DNA from: Mycolicibacterium pulveris
Lineage (GTDB): Bacteria > Actinomycetota > Actinomycetes > Mycobacteriales > Mycobacteriaceae
DNA: 64,000 nt
NCBI RefSeq assembly: GCF_010725725.1
Contig: NZ_AP022599.1
Span: forward strand, 3,844,001-3,908,000
Reading direction: 5' to 3'
The translations under genes and the position numbers were made by a program. This document shows positions 55,956 through 64,000 of the stretch, in pieces. The notes beneath the pieces were generated by a model that searched no databases, was not told the DNA's origin, and worked only from the letters and a program-made list of their open reading frames with translations. Positions within the stretch are counted from its first letter, which is position 1; every line of letters begins with the position of its first letter.

Positions 55956-57029
55956 TCACCACATCAGGCCGCGGACCATCTCCGACGGCGGAATGTCTTC
56001 GACGGCGATGATCCCCTTGGGCGCGCGGCACACCCAGTCGATCACGTTGACGACGCGGGCCGCGGTGGACACGCATCCGGCTTCGGTGACGTCGAGGGTG
56101 GGGTGAGACAGCAGGGTGCTCATCTCGATGCGGGGCTCGCCGTCCACGATCACCTTGTGCACACCGGAGTGTCCCTCGGGCGGATACTCCCAGTCAGGCG
56201 CCGCGTCCGGGGTGAGCCGGGTGGTGTGCTCCACGGTGATGACGGGTTCGCCGCCGCGCACGCCTTCCGCGGCGAACCGAACCCCGGCTAGCCGGCCGGG
56301 TTCGACGGTCATCATCTTGCATTCGATGCGCTTGTCGGCGTACCACGGCTCGTAGCGGTCGCGAAGCTCGTCGAGCTCGACTCCGAGATGATGCGCGAGG
56401 TTGCGCACCAGCCCGCCGAAAATCGATGCGATGACCCCGGGCTGGAACGCCATCGGCAGCTCATCATCGGGAGTGGCACCGAAACCCATTGCCGTTCCGG
56501 TGTATTCGTAGTCGTCGTAGTTGCCATAGTCGAAAACCTCCTGGATCGCGACCGATTCGGCACGGGTGACCAGGCTCAGCGCGGCCAGCGCCGCGGTGTC
56601 GCCCGAGTAGCCGGGGTCGATGCCGTTGACGTAGAGCGACGAATTGCCCGTTTCGCAGGCTTCTTCCAAGGGCTTGCGCAGCCAGTCGTCGGCCTGGTTC
56701 GGCGTCACCAACCACACCATCGACGTGCCCACGACGTTGATGCCCGCGGCGAGGAACTTCGACATCTCCTCGATCGCCTCCATCGGCCGCGTCTCACCCA
56801 GCGCGGTATAAACCACGCAATCGGGTTTCAGCGCGACCAGCGCGTCGATGTCGTCGGTCGCGATCACCCCTGTCGGTTCGCTGAGCCCGCACAACTCGGC
56901 AGCGTCCTTGCCGATCTTGTCGGGGCTGGCGGCATGTACTCCGACGAGCTCGAAATCCGGCCGCCCGATGAGCGCGGGCAACGAGTGCTGCCCGACGTTG
57001 CCGGTGGAAAACTGGACTACTCGGCGCAT
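55956..57029 (-). CDS. NAD(P)H-dependent amine dehydrogenase-like oxidoreductase
   Basis: 357 residues. Rossmann motif at the start (VVQFSTGNVGQHSL) followed by a dihydrodipicolinate reductase-like core. This fold includes 2,4-diaminopentanoate dehydrogenase and many mycobacterial paralogs with unknown substrates. Lies 18 nt after the SDR gene on the same strand, so the two likely form an operon controlled from the operator at 57854. Confidence 0.82.
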   Translation of the reverse strand: MRRVVQFSTGNVGQHSLPALIGRPDFELVGVHAASPDKIGKDAAELCGLSEPTGVIATDDIDALVALKPDCVVYTALGETRPMEAIEEMSKFLAAGINVVGTSMVWLVTPNQADDWLRKPLEEACETGNSSLYVNGIDPGYSGDTAALAALSLVTRAESVAIQEVFDYGNYDDYEYTGTAMGFGATPDDELPMAFQPGVIASIFGGLVRNLAHHLGVELDELRDRYEPWYADKRIECKMMTVEPGRLAGVRFAAEGVRGGEPVITVEHTTRLTPDAAPDWEYPPEGHSGVHKVIVDGEPRIEMSTLLSHPTLDVTEAGCVSTAARVVNVIDWVCRAPKGIIAVEDIPPSEMVRGLMW

Positions 57030-57047: not shown

Positions 57048-57836
57048 TCAGTAGTCGGGGATGGGCAGAGGCGAGTTGTTCGAGTCGATACCGCCGTCGA
57101 CGTGGAAGATCGCGTTGGTCGCGTAGCAGTCCCGGGTGGCCAGGTAGACGCAGAGCCGGCCGAGGTCTTCGACGTTGCCGAGCCGGTGCAGCGGCGTGGA
57201 CTCCAGCATCTTGTCCAACGATCCCGGCATCAGGTCCAGGCTGCCCTGCAGGCCGTCGGTGGCAAAGGAGCCCAACGCGATCGCGTTGACCCGGATTTTC
57301 GGGGCGAGTTCCTGTGCCATGGCCCGCGTCAACGCCTCCAGCGCCCCCTTGGCGGTGCAGTAGGCCGTAAGTGCCCGGATGCCGAACCGTGCCGAACCCG
57401 AAGAGATGTTGACGATCGATCCGTGGCCGGCGTCGAGCATGTGCGGCGCGCACAATTGGCTCATGATGAACGCCGAGGTCACACACCAGTCGAATGTCTG
57501 CTTGAAGTCCTCGTCGGTGATGTCGAGGAACCGTGCGTATTTCGAGCCGCCGACGTTGTTGATGAGGATGTCGATGCGGCCGAAGCGGTCCATGGTCGTG
57601 TTCACGACGCGTTCGCCGTCGGGACGGCTCATCGCGTCGGCGACGAGGGCCAAGCCCTTGCCGCCGGAATCTTCGATGCCCTTGATCGTCGCGACGATGT
57701 CGGATTCGGTGCGGGCCGTGCCGACGACGGTGGCACCAGCCTCCGCCAGGACCCGTGCGATACCTTGTCCGACACCTTTGCCCGCGCCGGTGACGATCGC
57801 CACCTGCCCGTCGAGATTGAACTGCTCCAGCGCCAT
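57048..57836 (-). CDS. Short-chain dehydrogenase/reductase
   Basis: 262 residues from ATG 57836 with GAGGAG upstream. Rossmann motif TGAGKGVGQG, NNVGG, and catalytic Ser-Tyr-Lys (NISSGSARFG... YCTAKGA). The Tyr is in AYCTAKG. Uses NAD(P)H on an alcohol/ketone; substrate unknown. The palindrome ATTGACT-GA-AGTCAAT lies 18 nt upstream of its start, so it is a likely target of the adjacent TetR proteins. Confidence 0.92.
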   Translation of the reverse strand: MALEQFNLDGQVAIVTGAGKGVGQGIARVLAEAGATVVGTARTESDIVATIKGIEDSGGKGLALVADAMSRPDGERVVNTTMDRFGRIDILINNVGGSKYARFLDITDEDFKQTFDWCVTSAFIMSQLCAPHMLDAGHGSIVNISSGSARFGIRALTAYCTAKGALEALTRAMAQELAPKIRVNAIALGSFATDGLQGSLDLMPGSLDKMLESTPLHRLGNVEDLGRLCVYLATRDCYATNAIFHVDGGIDSNNSPLPIPDY

Positions 57837-57853: not shown

Positions 57854-57869
57854 ATTGACTGAAGTCAAT
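57854..57869. promoter_or_regulatory. Operator 1, TGACT-NN-AGTCA, SDR/tetR divergent region
   Basis: ATTGACT-GA-AGTCAAT, 7-bp perfect arms. Between the SDR gene (minus) and the first TetR gene (plus). Same core as at 58518 and 59292. Confidence 0.8.
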
Positions 57870-57912
57870 CACATGTGTCAAGACCCCTCGTCGCTGTTGC
57901 TATCGTCTGGGC

Positions 57913-58512
57913 ATGGCGGTGGTCGACAAACCTTCAGCGCGTGAGGCAAAACGCTTACAGACCCGGGAGCGGCTGATGGGCGCCGCCATCGCCGAGTTCA
58001 AGCGGGCCGGGATGGCCGAGGCTGATGTCGGCGCCATCGTCGCGGCCGCCGGCGTCGCACACGGCACCTTCTTCTTTCACTTTCCCACCAAACAGCATGT
58101 GCTGCTCGAGCTGGAGCGTCGCGAAGAAGAGCGCATCGCCAAACAGCTCGGCCGGTTCGCTGACGCCAAGCGAAGCCTGCGCGCTATTTTCGAGGAGGCG
58201 GTACGCCTTGTGCTGGGGCTGGAGCGCCGCCTTGGGCCGATACTGTTCAAAGACTTTCTTGCACTGCACTTCTCGCAGAGCAGGCCGCTGGACGAGAGTA
58301 ACGAGCACCCAGTCATCGTCCGGGTCGCCCAGGAGATCGAGCGCGCCCAGCGGGCCGGCCGGGTCGCCCCCGCGGTCAACCCGACCAACAGTGCGGTGTT
58401 CTTCTTGCTCGGACTCTACGCATTGCTGACGACCACCCACGACTGGCCAACGCAGAGTTCGATGATCGACGACTACGTGGCCCAGACATTACGCGGCCTC
58501 GAGGCGCTCTGA
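57913..58512 (+). CDS. TetR family regulator, paralog 1
   Basis: 199 residues. Standard TetR N-terminus (TRERLMGAAIAEFKRAG); the recognition region GVAHGTFFFHFPTKQHVLLE is almost the same as in the TetR encoded at 59329, so both may bind one operator type. The rest of the two proteins is also clearly related (LGLERRLGPILFKDFLALHFS / TGLERRFGPILFKELLAQHFS). Divergent from the SDR; its stop lies within the next operator region. Confidence 0.92.
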   Translation: MAVVDKPSAREAKRLQTRERLMGAAIAEFKRAGMAEADVGAIVAAAGVAHGTFFFHFPTKQHVLLELERREEERIAKQLGRFADAKRSLRAIFEEAVRLVLGLERRLGPILFKDFLALHFSQSRPLDESNEHPVIVRVAQEIERAQRAGRVAPAVNPTNSAVFFLLGLYALLTTTHDWPTQSSMIDDYVAQTLRGLEAL

Positions 58513-58517
58513 CTGGT

Positions 58518-58529
58518 TGACTAAAGTCA
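58518..58529. promoter_or_regulatory. Operator 2, TGACT-NN-AGTCA, before membrane protein 1
   Basis: TGACT-AA-AGTCA, followed at once by GTCA and preceded by a further TGACT at 58510, suggesting room for a second dimer. 44 nt before the membrane-protein start. Confidence 0.8.
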
Positions 58530-58560
58530 GTCACGCTGCAAAGCTCAGCCCGGGCGATGC

Positions 58561-58566
58561 AGGAGG
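58561..58566 (+). promoter_or_regulatory. Ribosome binding site favouring TTG over ATG for membrane protein 1
   Basis: AGGAGG stands 7 nt before TTG 58574 but 13 nt before ATG 58580. Confidence 0.55.
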
Positions 58567-58573
58567 TGACCCT

Positions 58574-59269
58574 TTGACCATGTCCGCCAACACCGTGGTC
58601 GGAAGCGGGCTCGACGAGCACATGGAGCGCTCGCGTCAGGTGCAGCGGCAGGCCGATAAATGGCTGATCTCCGGCAGCGTGTTGATCGGCACCGCGGCGC
58701 TCGGCATCTTCGGCCTGCCGCTGTTTCTGCGCGGCGTGTGGATTCTGCGCAACGCCGCCCGCGAAGGACTGACGGTGCGGCCGATGCTGGTGACCCTGCT
58801 CGGCTACTGCGTCATCGTCGACGCCGCGATCAACGTGTTCGGGTGGGCGCTGGATCTGGTCGCCCACCACACGCTGCTAGCGCGAGTGTTGTTGAACGGC
58901 TGGGGAGCAATGTTCGACGCCGGCTACTTCTGGCACTACAACGAGCTCTGGCTCGGCGGGGCGGCCGGTCCCGGCGAGAAGGCACTCGAGGTCGGGCTGA
59001 TCCTCACCGTCTTCTGCATGCGCATCGCCGCGGGAATTGGCTTCCTGCAGATGAAGCGGTGGGGCCACCAGTGGATGATCATCACCTGCTGGATGGGCGT
59101 GGTTATCTGGTGCGTCTACGTGTTCAACATGACGATGTACGCCGATGTCCGCTACGCCGGGGTGATCCTGCCCGTGGTCGGTTGGTGGATCTACGACATC
59201 TTCTACATCACGCCGTTCCTGGCCATCCCGTATCTGCATTCGGTGAACAGGGAAATCTTCTCCGACTGA
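58574..59269 (+). CDS. Multi-spanning membrane protein, paralog 1, unknown family
   Basis: 231 residues from TTG 58574 (ATG 58580 also possible). About six hydrophobic helices. Shares long identical stretches with the protein at 62588: RPMxVTLx[68 protein letters not shown]. Conserved His and Trp/Tyr residues in these blocks could bind a metal or heme, which is inference. I do not recognise the family. Flanked by TetR genes and operators on both sides. Confidence 0.85.
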   Translation: MTMSANTVVGSGLDEHMERSRQVQRQADKWLISGSVLIGTAALGIFGLPLFLRGVWILRNAAREGLTVRPMLVTLLGYCVIVDAAINVFGWALDLVAHHTLLARVLLNGWGAMFDAGYFWHYNELWLGGAAGPGEKALEVGLILTVFCMRIAAGIGFLQMKRWGHQWMIITCWMGVVIWCVYVFNMTMYADVRYAGVILPVVGWWIYDIFYITPFLAIPYLHSVNREIFSD

Positions 59270-59278
59270 GCTTATAAC

Positions 59279-59303
59279 TGACTGAACTCATTGACTACAG
59301 TCA
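59279..59303. promoter_or_regulatory. Operator 3, tandem TGACT-NN-AGTCA sites before tetR paralog 2
   Basis: TGACT-AC-AGTCA at 59292-59303 is exact; TGACT-GA-ACTCA at 59279-59290, one base upstream, has one mismatch. They lie 25 nt before the second TetR gene, the first gene of the large transcription unit. Confidence 0.8.
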
Positions 59304-59328
59304 GTCATTGCGTTACAAAGGGCGGACC

Positions 59329-59931
59329 ATGACCTCACAGGTGAAGGTGTCGGCGCGAGCGGCGCGACGGATGCGGACGCGCGAGCGCATCCTCGGTGCC
59401 GCGATCGCCGAGTTCAAGAAGTCGGGCATGGCCGGCGCCGACGTCAATGCGATCGCCGCGGCCGCCGGTGTCGCGCACGGCACCTTCTTCTTCCACTTTC
59501 CCAGCAAGGAGCATGTGCTTCTCGAGTTGGAGAACCGCGAAGAGGCGCGGATCGCAGCGGAATTCGCCAGGTTTGTCGAACAGCGGCACGACCTGGTCAC
59601 CACGTTGACCGCCGTGATCGACCTCGTGACCGGTCTGGAGCGCCGGTTCGGGCCGATCCTTTTCAAAGAGCTGCTGGCTCAGCATTTCTCGCCGACAAGG
59701 CCGCACAAGGATGAGTGGACCGACCATCCGGTGATCGTGTTGCTGGTGCGCGAGCTCGAGCGGGCTCGCGGTGACGGTGAAGTTCACCCTGAGGTCGACG
59801 CCTTCTACAGCGCCACCTTCTTCCTGCTCGGCATCTACGGCGTGCTGACCACGACGGACAATCCCGAGACCCGCGAAACGATGCTGGCCAAGTTGGTCTC
59901 GACCGCCGTGCGCGGTCTGGAGGTGCGATGA
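59329..59931 (+). CDS. TetR family regulator, paralog 2
   Basis: 200 residues from ATG 59329. Paralog of the TetR at 57913, with nearly the same recognition helix (GVAHGTFFFHFPSKEHVLLE). Operator 3 lies directly upstream, so autoregulation is expected. First gene of the unit that continues through the VWA, MoxR and P450 genes; the next sORF starts 33 nt downstream. Confidence 0.92.
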   Translation: MTSQVKVSARAARRMRTRERILGAAIAEFKKSGMAGADVNAIAAAAGVAHGTFFFHFPSKEHVLLELENREEARIAAEFARFVEQRHDLVTTLTAVIDLVTGLERRFGPILFKELLAQHFSPTRPHKDEWTDHPVIVLLVRELERARGDGEVHPEVDAFYSATFFLLGIYGVLTTTDNPETRETMLAKLVSTAVRGLEVR

Positions 59932-59964
59932 CATGCGACAAGACGACAAGCGAGGAGTTTGACA

Positions 59965-60072
59965 GTGTGGGCATGGATTTGGGAGATACTGCGCTACGTC
60001 GGGGCGTGGGGTGGAGCCGCCCTCGTCATCTGGTTCTGGTACTGGATGTTCTCCAGCCTCGGCACGTTCTAG
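59965..60072 (+). CDS. 35-residue tryptophan-rich membrane peptide
   Basis: GTG 59965 with GAGGAG about 8 nt upstream. The 35 residues start VWAWIWEILRYVGAWG, continue with AALVIWFWYWMF and end SSLGTF. Seven Trp and almost no charge; one membrane helix. It fills the gap between TetR and the VWA gene, 7 nt before the latter. The good ribosome site and fit into the operon make it a likely real gene, but no homolog is known to me. Confidence 0.7.
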   Translation: MWAWIWEILRYVGAWGGAALVIWFWYWMFSSLGTF

Positions 60073-60079
60073 GGCTGCG

Positions 60080-61615
60080 ATGAGCGAGCTGTCCGACGCG
60101 CACGCGCTGGCGATCGAACGAAGTTGCGCCGTCACGGCTGTCGCGCTGAGCGGCGAACGCCGCGAAGGGGTGCGCCTGGTGACCGGTGAGCACCGTCAGT
60201 TCAGCCTGAGCGCCGGTCTCGATTACGTGCAGGTGCCCTATCCCTCTCTTGGGCGCGACTGGACGCGTAGAACTTTGACGTGTGGTGTCGCACTCCAATC
60301 TTCACCTTCCAAGGAGCGACTCGCCGGCTATCGGCTCAACGAGCTGACGGCGCGTGAGCTTCGTGCGCTCACGCTGGTCGAGGCCGGCGTCGCACTGGGC
60401 TGGGTCGCCGCCACCTGGCCCGGCCTGATGAGCGAGGCGCAGCGATTGCTGCCCGATCTCGAGATGTTGCCCGACGACATGACCGCCGAGGCGATGCTCG
60501 ACCGGGCGATCACGTGGGCGCGCAGCGGACAGCCGATCGCCGACGTCCCGGCTGTGGTGGGCCGGTTGCCGCTGGCCTACACGGCGCCGCAGGGGCTGAC
60601 CGACAAGCTGCGGCGCAGCTTCGGCCGGATGCCGTGGACCAGTACCCAAAAGCGGCTGCCGCGCCCGTACTCGGTGCCCGTCGGCGGCGACGGAGGTGTG
60701 CGCAACCTGAACCTGCCGCCGCCGAGCCGCCCGCAGGACAACGACCTCGACGTCGCCCCCGAGCACCGGCCGGGAATCCCGTACCCGGAGTGGAACGCCT
60801 GGACGAAAAGCTTCATGCCCGACCATGTCGCGGTGCTCGAACGCGCTCATCCCAGCCGCGAACGACAGCCCGGCGTGGTCTCGGCCGACTTGCGCAAATG
60901 GTTCGAGGAGCACACCCATCGGGCCATGAAGAGCCGGCTTGAAGACGGTAGCGACCTGGACGTCGACCAGTATGTGAACCATTACGTCGACCTCACCACC
61001 GGCGAGGCGATCGAGCCCCGCATCTTCCGCGAACTGCTGCCCAGCAGCCGCGACGTCACCACCGCCTTGCTGTTGGACGGCAGTTCGTCGCTGGGAGTGC
61101 ACGGCGGAAGGGTCTTCAAGCTCGAGTTGGCCTGCGCAGACGCGCTGTCGCGGGCGATGACGCTGGCCCGGGAACGGCACGGAATCTTCGTGTTCACCGG
61201 AAACACCCGCCATCGGGTCGAAGTCAACTGCCTGAAGGACTTCGACGAGCGGCGCTTTGTGCCGCCGAGCCGGCTGGGCCTGTCGGCCGGGGGCTATACC
61301 CGGCTCGGTGCGCCGTTGCGGCACTTGACAAGCCGTTTGCTGGCGCAGCCTTCCGAGCGGCGCCTGATGATCGTGATCGGTGACGGCCTGATCTCCGACG
61401 AGGGCTACGAGGGCCGCTACGCCTGGGCCGACGCCGCGCACGCGGTCGAGGAGGCCAACGACGCAGGCGTCTCGATCTACTACGTCGGCGTCGGACCGAC
61501 CCGGGTCGATCCGCTGCCAGAGGTCTTCGGACCCCGCCGGTCCCAACGCATCCGGCGCGTGGAGGACCTGCCCAGGGTGCTCGCCCACGTCCACCGCGAA
61601 CTCGTCGCCGCCTGA
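60080..61615 (+). CDS. VWA-domain protein, CoxE/NorD-type partner of MoxR ATPase
   Basis: 511 residues from ATG 60080. The C-terminal half is a von Willebrand A domain with a full MIDAS site: DGSSS (333-337), Thr407 in GGYTRLG, Asp435 in IGDG. The N-terminal half is long and unassigned. VWA proteins of this group (NorD, CbbO, CoxE) pair with a MoxR-type ATPase to activate or insert metal into a target enzyme. The ATPase gene follows after 31 nt. The target here is unknown. Confidence 0.9.
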   Translation: MSELSDAHALAIERSCAVTAVALSGERREGVRLVTGEHRQFSLSAGLDYVQVPYPSLGRDWTRRTLTCGVALQSSPSKERLAGYRLNELTARELRALTLVEAGVALGWVAATWPGLMSEAQRLLPDLEMLPDDMTAEAMLDRAITWARSGQPIADVPAVVGRLPLAYTAPQGLTDKLRRSFGRMPWTSTQKRLPRPYSVPVGGDGGVRNLNLPPPSRPQDNDLDVAPEHRPGIPYPEWNAWTKSFMPDHVAVLERAHPSRERQPGVVSADLRKWFEEHTHRAMKSRLEDGSDLDVDQYVNHYVDLTTGEAIEPRIFRELLPSSRDVTTALLLDGSSSLGVHGGRVFKLELACADALSRAMTLARERHGIFVFTGNTRHRVEVNCLKDFDERRFVPPSRLGLSAGGYTRLGAPLRHLTSRLLAQPSERRLMIVIGDGLISDEGYEGRYAWADAAHAVEEANDAGVSIYYVGVGPTRVDPLPEVFGPRRSQRIRRVEDLPRVLAHVHRELVAA

Positions 61616-61646
61616 TCGACAACCAACCGAGGAGCTCCAGCCACCG

Positions 61647-62450
61647 ATGACCACCGACACCTACTACGCCAACGGCAACGAAGTCCAGCTGTTCGAGCAG
61701 GCCTATCACCAGCGCCTACCCGTCATGCTCACCGGACCGACCGGGTGCGGGAAGACACGCCTCGTCGAGCACATGGGCGCGCTGCTGCGCCGGCCCGTCG
61801 TCACCATCAGCTGCCACGACGATCTGACCAGCTCGGATCTCGTCGGCCGGTTCATGGTGACCGGCGGCGATGTGGTCTGGACGGACGGACCGCTGACCAG
61901 GGCGGTCAAAGCCGGGGCGATCTGCTATCTCGACGAGGTGGTGGAGGCTCGCCACGACTCGCTCGCGGTGTTGCATTCGTTGACCGACCACCGACGCACG
62001 CTCTACCTCGACCGCGCCGACGAGGTGGTCCACGCCCCCGAAACCTTCATGCTGGTGTGCTCTTACAACCCGGCGTACCGCAGCTCGCTGAAGGAACTCA
62101 AACCGTCGTTTCGGCAACGCTTCGTCACGCTGCCGATGAATTACCTTCCCCCCGACCGCGAGGCCGAGGTCATCGTCGCCGAAACCGGCGTCCCGCTGCC
62201 GACCGCCACGCGACTGGTCCGATGCGCCACCGCCATCCGCACCGCCGACGAGGCGTTCCACTTCGAACCCCCGTCGACCCGCGTCCTGGTCACCGCGGCA
62301 CACCTGATCGCCGCCGGCGCAACCGAACTGGACGCGGCCGAGGCCTGCGTTCTCGCGCCGTTGTCCAGCGACGGCGCCGTCACCGACGGCCTACGTGAAG
62401 TCGCCGTGGCCAGCCTGGCCGGCGCCGACACTTCGAGCACCCCGCACTAG
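61647..62450 (+). CDS. MoxR-family AAA+ ATPase, NorQ/CbbQ-like
   Basis: 267 residues. Walker A GPTGCGKT (30-37), Walker B ICYLDE (92-97), sensor 1 in CSYNP (N141) and arginine-finger region SFRQRF (156-158). The compact form resembles NorQ/CbbQ, which form hexamers that remodel a metalloenzyme together with a VWA adaptor. Such an adaptor is encoded just upstream. RBS GAGGAG stands before ATG 61647. Confidence 0.93.
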   Translation: MTTDTYYANGNEVQLFEQAYHQRLPVMLTGPTGCGKTRLVEHMGALLRRPVVTISCHDDLTSSDLVGRFMVTGGDVVWTDGPLTRAVKAGAICYLDEVVEARHDSLAVLHSLTDHRRTLYLDRADEVVHAPETFMLVCSYNPAYRSSLKELKPSFRQRFVTLPMNYLPPDREAEVIVAETGVPLPTATRLVRCATAIRTADEAFHFEPPSTRVLVTAAHLIAAGATELDAAEACVLAPLSSDGAVTDGLREVAVASLAGADTSSTPH

Positions 62451-62462
62451 GAAGGAATCCTT

Positions 62463-62591
62463 ATGGACCCCAAGGAGAGGCAGCGCAAACGAGCGCTGAT
62501 CATTCTGCAGATCGTCATCTACGGCTATCTGCTGGCGATGTTCCTCATCCAGCTGTACATGTCGTTCGAGCGGGGCTGGTGGACGCTGTGA
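62463..62591 (+). CDS. 42-residue single-helix membrane peptide
   Basis: ATG 62463 preceded by AGGAAGGA. Starts MDPKERQRKRALI, has one helix (ILQIVIYGYLLAMFLIQLYM) and ends FERGWWTL. Charged N-terminus and short C-terminal tail. Its TGA overlaps the GTG of the next gene (GTGA), strong evidence of real translation. No family recognised; such peptides often are small subunits of membrane complexes. Confidence 0.78.
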   Translation: MDPKERQRKRALIILQIVIYGYLLAMFLIQLYMSFERGWWTL

Positions 62592-63274
62592 GCGCGACGG
62601 CGACGACGGTCAGCCTCGAAGACCACCACGAAGAATCGCGACTCGCCCAACGCCGCGCCGACAAGTGGATGATCGTCGGCGCCGCGCTGATGGGCATGTG
62701 GGCACCGGGCATCATCGGCTTCCCGATCTTCATGCGCGGGGTGTGGTTACAGCGACAGGCCGCGCGGGCCGGCCTGTCGGTGCGGCCGATGATCGTCACG
62801 CTGATCGGCTACCTGGTGCTCATCGACGGCTTCCTCAACAGCCTGGGCTGGGCGTTGGACCTGATCGGCAACCACACCTTGATCAACCGGGTGTTGATGA
62901 TCGGCTGGGGCCACATGTTCGACGCGGCCTACTTCTGGCACTACAACGAACCCTGGGTCGGCGGCTCCGCGGTACCCGGCGAAAAGGCCTATGTCGCAGG
63001 GCTGATCCTGACCGTGTTCGCGATGCGGTGCGCCGCGGCAATCGGCTTCCTGCAGATGAAGCGGTGGGGGCACCAGTGGATGATCATCACCTGCTGGATG
63101 GGTGTGGTGATCTGGTGCGCCTACGTGTTCAACATGACGATGTACGCCGACGTGCGCTACTCCGGTGTGCTGTTCCCCGTCATCGGCTGGTGGATCTACG
63201 ACATCTTCTACATCACACCGTTCCTGGCGATTCCCTATCTGCACACCGTCAACCGCGAGATCTTCTCCGACTGA
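62588..63274 (+). CDS. Multi-spanning membrane protein, paralog 2, unknown family
   Basis: 228 residues from GTG 62588 ([18 protein letters not shown]). Close paralog of the protein at 58574, with the same six-helix pattern and conserved blocks ([53 protein letters not shown]). Coupled to the 42-residue peptide by overlap. The 146-residue gene follows after 19 nt. Function unknown. Confidence 0.87.
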
Positions 63275-63293
63275 ACAGGTTAAGGAGCAAACC

Positions 63294-63734
63294 ATGACGT
63301 CGTCACCGTCCACCTCGGCCGCCGACGAGAAGGATCCCGCCGAGGATCTCCCGCCCGGTACCACCCCGTACTACGCGCGGATGCACAAGTACATCAAGCG
63401 CGCCGTGCTCGTCTGCCTGATCGCCCTGGTGATCGAGGGAGCGTTCACGCTGCCCTTCATGGCGGTGTGGTACGGCTATCCGACCCTGAGCCTCACCGAG
63501 ATCTGCAGCGGCCTGCTCAAGGTCCGCTACTCCGACGACACGCTGGAGTGCAAGGTGCCGTATCCGCCGCTCGGCCCACCGGAGGGCGCCGAGGGCAAGG
63601 ACACCGCGCGCGACGAGTGGGGGATCCAGCCGGTACCCAAGTATGACCGGATCGGCTTCCGCGAACTGGTCCGCATCCACGAGGAGAGCGAGGCTCGCAA
63701 AGCCGCGCAGCAACAACAGGATTCGACGCCATGA
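63294..63734 (+). CDS. Single-pass membrane protein of the P450 cluster
   Basis: 146 residues; ATG 63294 has AAGGAG 7 nt upstream. An acidic N-terminus is followed by one membrane helix ([23 protein letters not shown]). A soluble part with two cysteines (EICSG, LECKV) and a charged, Gln-rich C-terminus follow. Family not recognised. The TGA overlaps the P450 ATG (ATGA). Confidence 0.82.
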
Positions 63735-64000
63735 GTCGACGATCGGCCGACGAGCACGCGCAGAACTGGGATCTGCGCCACGAGGACTTCAACGACATCG
63801 AATTCCTCTACGAGGTCTACGGGGTGATGCGGCGCCAAGCGCCGTTCGTACACACCGACACCCCGTTCCTCACCACCATGCCGGGCAGCGCCTGGGTGGC
63901 GGTGCGCTATGAGGAGTGCTACCGAATCCTGCAGGACTGGCAGCATTTCTCGAGCAACCCGACGCCGGACGCGACCGAGGCGTTCGGCGGTGATCTGGTG
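63731..64000 (+). CDS. Cytochrome P450, 3' end cut by window edge
   Basis: The first 90 residues are visible: [19 protein letters not shown], then a P450 N-terminus with [39 protein letters not shown]. The pattern matches bacterial soluble P450s (helix A, beta-1 sheet, helix B). The heme-binding region lies beyond the window. ATG 63731 overlaps the preceding gene. Likely the oxygenase of the cluster. Confidence 0.88.

Follow-up and report, generated by a model that had tools for sequence, protein, structure and literature searches.

Which protein does a MoxR/VWA pair serve when no standard metalloenzyme for such a pair is encoded beside it? This question is raised by a gene cluster in a 64,000-nucleotide stretch of the Mycolicibacterium pulveris genome (contig NZ_AP022599.1, positions 3,844,001 to 3,908,000 of the forward strand; the whole stretch is called the window below), in which genes for a MoxR ATPase of the AAA+ type and a VWA protein lie among those for two polytopic membrane proteins (MemA and MemB, together Mem), two micropeptides (MP1 and MP2) and a single-pass protein (SP146). 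Most likely, the cluster encodes a membrane complex assisted by a NorQ/NorD-type pair (NorQD), the client being the EBP-like Mem proteins, and the cytochrome P450 next to it is accessory. To our knowledge, MoxR/VWA machines have few known clients, mostly metalloenzymes, and a conserved pair with a sterol-isomerase-like client would widen the range of these motors. The genes of the cluster are as follows.

57913 to 58512, plus strand: TetR1 regulator (PF00440)
58580 to 59269, plus strand: MemA, polytopic membrane protein of 229 aa, with an EBP-like fold predicted via its homology to MemB
59329 to 59931, plus strand: TetR2 regulator, ScbR-like (PF00440; NF041196 at E 3.1e-19, under that model's cut-off)
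59965 to 60072, plus strand: MP1, Trp-rich single-helix micropeptide of 35 aa, with a GTG start
60080 to 61615, plus strand: VWA protein of 511 aa with a NorD-like C-terminal part (PF00092)
61647 to 62450, plus strand: MoxR AAA+ ATPase of the NorQ/CbbQ type, 267 aa (PF07728, PF08406 CbbQ_C)
62463 to 62591, plus strand: MP2, single-helix micropeptide of 42 aa with a basic N-terminus
62588 to 63274, plus strand: MemB, polytopic membrane protein of 228 aa with a predicted EBP/TMEM97-like fold
63294 to 63734, plus strand: SP146, single-pass protein of 146 aa with two conserved Cys (C-x14-C)
63731 to 64000, plus strand: P450a (PF00067), accessory, of which only the gene start lies in the window

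An earlier note on this DNA had described a packed one-strand cluster with start/stop overlaps and two related membrane proteins, and the sequence agrees: GTGA at 62588-62591 joins MP2 to MemB, ATGA at 63731-63734 joins SP146 to P450a, and MemA and MemB are 71% identical. The NorQ-like ATPase and VWA partner named there were also borne out. MoxR matched PF07728 (E 9.5e-37) and CbbQ_C (PF08406, E 8.4e-21) and, among solved chains, NorQ (9qh4, E 3.4e-76) as well as CbbQ; the Walker A and B patterns were present in 94/94 MoxR proteins. The VWA protein, whose gene adjoins that of MoxR, matched solved NorD (9qhd, E 1.4e-33) over residues 207-511 only, its N-terminal part, the presumed client-binding part, being unmatched by solved NorD, and the DxSxS (MIDAS) motif was found in 91/95 VWA proteins. 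The locus shares with NorQ/NorD and CbbQ/CbbO a NorQ-type AAA+ ATPase with CbbQ_C and intact Walker motifs, a VWA protein with DxSxS, adjacent genes and a probable membrane-bound client. It differs from both in that the VWA likeness begins only at residue 207, no cNOR or Rubisco gene was seen at the locus, and two micropeptides and an EBP-like client are found instead. As the earlier note had said, no standard metalloenzyme for the pair was present among the nine locus proteins scanned; the cNOR family (NorB/NorC) was missing both from these and from the conserved block. NorQD is described as remodelling a membrane-bound client and thereby inserting iron (PMC13036017).

The pair and the membrane proteins keep together. 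We took the best 80 of 344 MemB relatives in named genomes, so that these 80 loci are close relatives. By best match, VWA, MoxR, MemB and SP146 were each found in 80/80 loci and MemA in 79/80, and the cluster is therefore more than a chance assembly; TetR1 was found in 70/80 and TetR2 in 20/80. Pattern searches recovered MP1 and MP2 in 79/80 loci each, the sole MP1 miss being L038, whose sequence starts inside the VWA gene, and the sole MP2 miss being L035, which has a variant MP2 copy. The MemB of Mycolicibacterium elephantis DSM 44368 was 100% identical over the matched residues. Moreover, 13 regions of six other genera contain the block again, with either a single Mem gene or two. These were hand-chosen and selected by Mem, which is hence present in all of them; 15 regions had been picked, and L133 and L134, additional Mem copies from the own genus with no NorQD close by, were left out. 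L125 in this set and L087 among the 80 loci are very probably one record, which was counted in both. VWA and MP1 occurred in 13/13 of these regions, and MP1, VWA, MoxR, MP2, Mem and SP occurred together in 12/13, the remaining one being cut by a contig end; in L123 and L130, MP2 sits between two Mem genes, not ahead of one.

A comparison by eye of the genomes with VWA (E 1e-60) and with Mem (E 1e-10) gave the same picture for 148 genomes of the genus: VWA was found in 80 and Mem in 82, all 80 lay within the 82, Mem without VWA was seen in two (G685, G738), and neither was found in 66. Mem also occurred in 32/301 genomes of the family and 9/396 of the phylum. An EBP-like, possibly isoprenoid-modifying membrane complex would then be present in 80 of these 148 genomes and also in relatives, Nocardia for example, where most annotated names read 'hypothetical protein'. 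The M. pulveris genome itself holds four Mem copies: MemA, MemB, a copy within an MP2-Mem-SP set without NorQD (L115:9027-10285), which lies inside an acyl-CoA/SDR catabolic cluster, and a distant copy with a 66-aa single-pass partner (L113:10749-11676), about 13 kb from a second NorQD pair that is followed by a P450 (L010:7664-11635).

In a tree of 23 hand-picked NorQ rows, the 18 from Mem loci, including distant L010 and L114, split from the five rows of AveC-like and P450 loci with 100/100 support, under a long-branch warning that concerns L010 and L114 above all. Three more NorQD loci of the own genome (L011, L013, L014) neighbour AveC-like (PF17198) membrane proteins, which suggests that polytopic membrane proteins are a recurrent client of NorQD pairs in these bacteria. 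The arrangement is parallel to that of Mem, but the NorQ rows of the AveC-like loci are separated from those of Mem loci in the tree, and a homology between Mem and AveC-like proteins, considered for a similar 'EG' helix motif, was rejected by profile comparison (hhalign probability 0.9%). Homology of SP146 to AveC-like proteins (0.3%) and of Mem to SP (3.5%) was rejected likewise.

The kind of client that Mem may be is indicated by its predicted fold. A first MemB model, built from 32 close homologues, had a pLDDT (predicted local distance difference test) of 71.6 and gave no usable fold match; it was replaced by one built from 104 diverse homologues. The best fold match of the latter was the EXPERA fold of EBP/TMEM97, with which it shares a four-helix core in the model comparison. 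As modelled, MemB resembles the EBP fold, with a four-helix EXPERA core and an extra N-terminal hairpin. By sequence, MemA and MemB matched no Pfam and no NCBIfam family at E 1, hence no curated oxygenase family and not PF05241 (EXPERA) either, for which the own genome gave no match at E 1. PF05241 matched 25/104 Mem homologues weakly (best E 4.5e-4) and 3/10 homologues scanned singly, with 16.5-19.3 bits, below the cut-off of 25.7. Profile searches against PDB sequences gave chance-level matches only, among the matches listed, and no methane/ammonia monooxygenase subunit was among the fold matches listed. Mem has in common with the EXPERA superfamily (EBP, TMEM97, TM6SF2; PF05241) the modelled four-helix core and the form of a small polytopic protein, and may share with it invariant acidic residues and a D-x2-Y motif, which are similar in order and spacing. 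It differs from it in scoring below the Pfam cut-off in the proteins scanned, in the additional hairpin, and in an operon shared with an AAA+/VWA pair and one-helix partners.

Four residues, D79, D111, Y114 and E131, were invariant in the 104 Mem homologues, and N83, R65, R189, W159 and others were nearly so. In EBP, whose active site includes the acidic residues E80 and D108 (PMC4263179), D108-x2-Y111 and E122 may correspond, by order and spacing, to Mem D111-x2-Y114 and E131. Furthermore, EBP H76 and E80 precede D108 by 32 and 28 residues, as Mem D79 and N83 precede D111; judged by this spacing, D79 and N83 may hold the positions of H76 and E80.

MP1 and MP2 are so short that ordinary gene calling can miss both. 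Over 197-200 sampled pairs, the mean nonsynonymous (dN) and synonymous (dS) divergences were 0.084 and 0.784 for MP1, 0.108 and 0.943 for MP2, and 0.045 and 0.656 for MemB (180 codons, 77 loci). Because dN was well under dS, MP1 and MP2 behave, on this sequence measure, as real genes under purifying selection. The C-x14-C motif of SP146 was present in 95/95 proteins.

The coregulation proposed by the earlier note is supported by a predicted operator. Two TetR genes and a common palindromic operator, which that note did not contain, were seen at the locus, and two linked genes are found beyond the first operator.

57855 to 57868, no strand: operator 1, palindrome TGACTNNAGTCA, between the SDR and TetR1 genes
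58517 to 58529, no strand: operator 2, upstream of MemA
59291 to 59303, no strand: operator 3, upstream of TetR2
57048 to 57836, minus strand: SDR oxidoreductase, oriented divergently to the cluster, with operator 1 in front of it (start picked by eye; the open reading frame reaches 57881)
55956 to 57029, minus strand: DapB/amine-dehydrogenase-like NAD(P) oxidoreductase, a linked neighbour adjoining the SDR gene

The palindrome TTGACTNNAGTCA occurred at 57855, 58517 and 59291, and in none of 100 shuffles. Its longer form TTGACTNNAGTCANTCA had three occurrences genome-wide, all at this cluster, and the backward control pattern had none. Among the 80 loci, TGACTNNAGTCA was found in 77, with 142 occurrences in 1.61 Mb, where base composition would predict about 0.5. 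Since orthologues of the SDR (score over 450) and of the amine-dehydrogenase-like gene (score over 500) were found in 54/80 and 56/80 loci, respectively, both upstream genes probably belong to the regulon.

The explanation that we favour, tentatively and with slightly less than even confidence, is a TetR-controlled operon for an EBP-like membrane enzyme complex and its own AAA+/VWA activator, with acid-base chemistry on a polycyclic isoprenoid. MemA and MemB would be the catalytic subunits, each with an EXPERA-like four-helix core and an N-terminal helical hairpin, and the presumed active site would be lined by D79, D111, E131 and Y114. MP1, MP2 and SP146 would be one-helix subunits. NorQ (MoxR) and NorD (VWA) would bind from the cytoplasm, and their ATP-driven remodelling would yield the active complex. 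The reaction would likely shift a double bond in, or rearrange, a steroid- or triterpenoid-like polycyclic intermediate, made or used by the neighbouring SDR, amine-dehydrogenase-like and P450/Rieske enzymes. The pairing of an enzyme-activating type of motor with proteins resembling human EBP in shape, and with two one-helix micropeptides, points to a lipid-modifying membrane enzyme, not described before, that depends on an activator of its own. If NorQD does act on an EBP-fold enzyme, this would be a new kind of client for MoxR/VWA machines and a new architecture for the sterol-isomerase fold. It is doubtful, but worth stating, that NorQ/NorD loads or switches a multi-subunit EBP-fold enzyme with two micropeptides, which might even be the first EXPERA enzyme with a catalytic metal.

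The alternative that survives best, though we consider it rather unlikely, is that Mem is a metal-dependent membrane enzyme, for example an oxygenase or a desaturase, and that NorQD supplies its metal in the way it puts iron into nitric oxide reductase. Its ligands would be D79, D111, E131 and Y114 together with H95 and H117. The clear NorQ/NorD type of the pair fits this, as NorQD is reported to drive metal insertion (PMC13036017), and so do the histidines: among 176 Mem rows from 94 loci (loci set aside as lacking NorQD being left out), H95 was kept in 175/176 and H117 in 173/176. H218 was also kept, in 175/176. However, in L114, a distant locus in which Mem lies beside NorQD, positions 117, 161 and 218 carry D, L and Y instead of His, and position 117 is His in 52/104 homologues. 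As L114 has D at 117, a metal site at H117 is possible only if L114 differs. The lack of any family match for MemA and MemB and the EBP/TMEM97 likeness of the model also speak against a metal enzyme. As for the membrane oxygenase suggested by the earlier note, His95 and His117 are conserved in the main clade, and the client of the pair is probably Mem, but nothing specific supports a metal-dependent oxygenase. That note had taken membership of a described family unrelated to oxidation as telling against it, and the evidence goes part of this way, the nearest fold being that of EXPERA EBP/TMEM97, which includes a non-oxidative sterol isomerase.

Less probable still is a non-catalytic module for lipid or sterol binding or for assembly, like TMEM97 or NACHO, which would pass lipophilic substrates to soluble P450, SDR and CoA enzymes while NorQD cycles its conformation. 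The TMEM97-like fold would suit it, but three acidic residues and a Tyr strictly invariant in 104 diverse homologues are a better fit to catalysis.

The P450 itself proved a loose companion. P450a runs about 963 bases past the window end, to the equivalent of 64963 in the genome sequence, and is followed there by a DapB-like reductase and two further P450s; its nearest solved chains were CYP125 ancestors, then many other hydroxylases. An orthologue of P450a (score over 600) was found in 24/80 loci, and the gene directly after SP146 was a P450 in 24/80, although some P450 similar to P450a or the two following it (a, b or c; score over 60) lay within the approximately 20-kb locus in 70/80. In the other genera, 1/13 regions had a P450 resembling the queried ones. 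An obligate partnership of the P450 is not supported: of the association proposed earlier, MoxR, VWA and Mem keep together and the P450 follows them only in part, and the conservation data weaken the candidacy of either the P450 or a His-rich Mem as an obligate metalloenzyme. That NorQD serves P450s, which the membrane proteins merely anchor or feed, is highly improbable, for although two other NorQD pairs of the own genome (L010, L012) adjoin P450s and some P450 is near in most loci, Mem and not the P450 persists in the other genera (chosen by Mem), and in a genome with 70 PF00067 matches, some split, some P450s would lie nearby by chance, on a one-genome baseline that ignores the kinship of the loci and the clustering of P450s.

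The surroundings in the other genera lean towards polycyclic isoprenoid metabolism, with a mixed picture. Among 69 of 101 non-core neighbour proteins that were scanned (those of L126 and L131, which seemed nearly to duplicate L121 and L127, were dropped along with certain others), matches included SDR (4), APH/EcKL (3), KshA_C (2), 3Beta_HSD (2), thiolase (2), acyl-CoA dehydrogenase (2) and others. Two Rieske-motif proteins, taken as the KshA_C pair, flank the single locus L123, and one 3Beta_HSD match (L124) fits a general epimerase better.

No report of an AAA+/VWA-EBP-like operon or its micropeptides was found among the titles and abstract beginnings searched, nor a paper joining EXPERA and mycobacteria. 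Related proteins have been noted separately. A genomic island of strain UM_CSW, from which locus L086 comes, is reported to hold three EBP homologues together with a TetR gene and one for a probable cholesterol dehydrogenase (PMC4818103), and PF05241 is listed for Mycobacterium, Mycolicibacterium, Microbacterium and Nocardia (PMC9903846); the passages on these proteins, unlike the present analysis, do not mention the AAA+/VWA pair, micropeptides, SP146 or operator. In plants, isomerases of the EBP type that take the product of a P450 as substrate have been described (PMC9999417).

A plasmid search gave a single, distant match. A Mem gene was also seen on a Mycobacterium branderi plasmid (L138), with no NorQD gene annotated within 8 kb. 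Downstream of their Mem clusters, L087 (16081-20677) and L125 carry a second NorQD pair; in L087, the genes after it encode a binding protein and a membrane protein of the AveC-like type. An APH/ecdysteroid-kinase-like gene adjoins the end of the Mem-SP block in L123, L127, L130 and L131 of the other genera.

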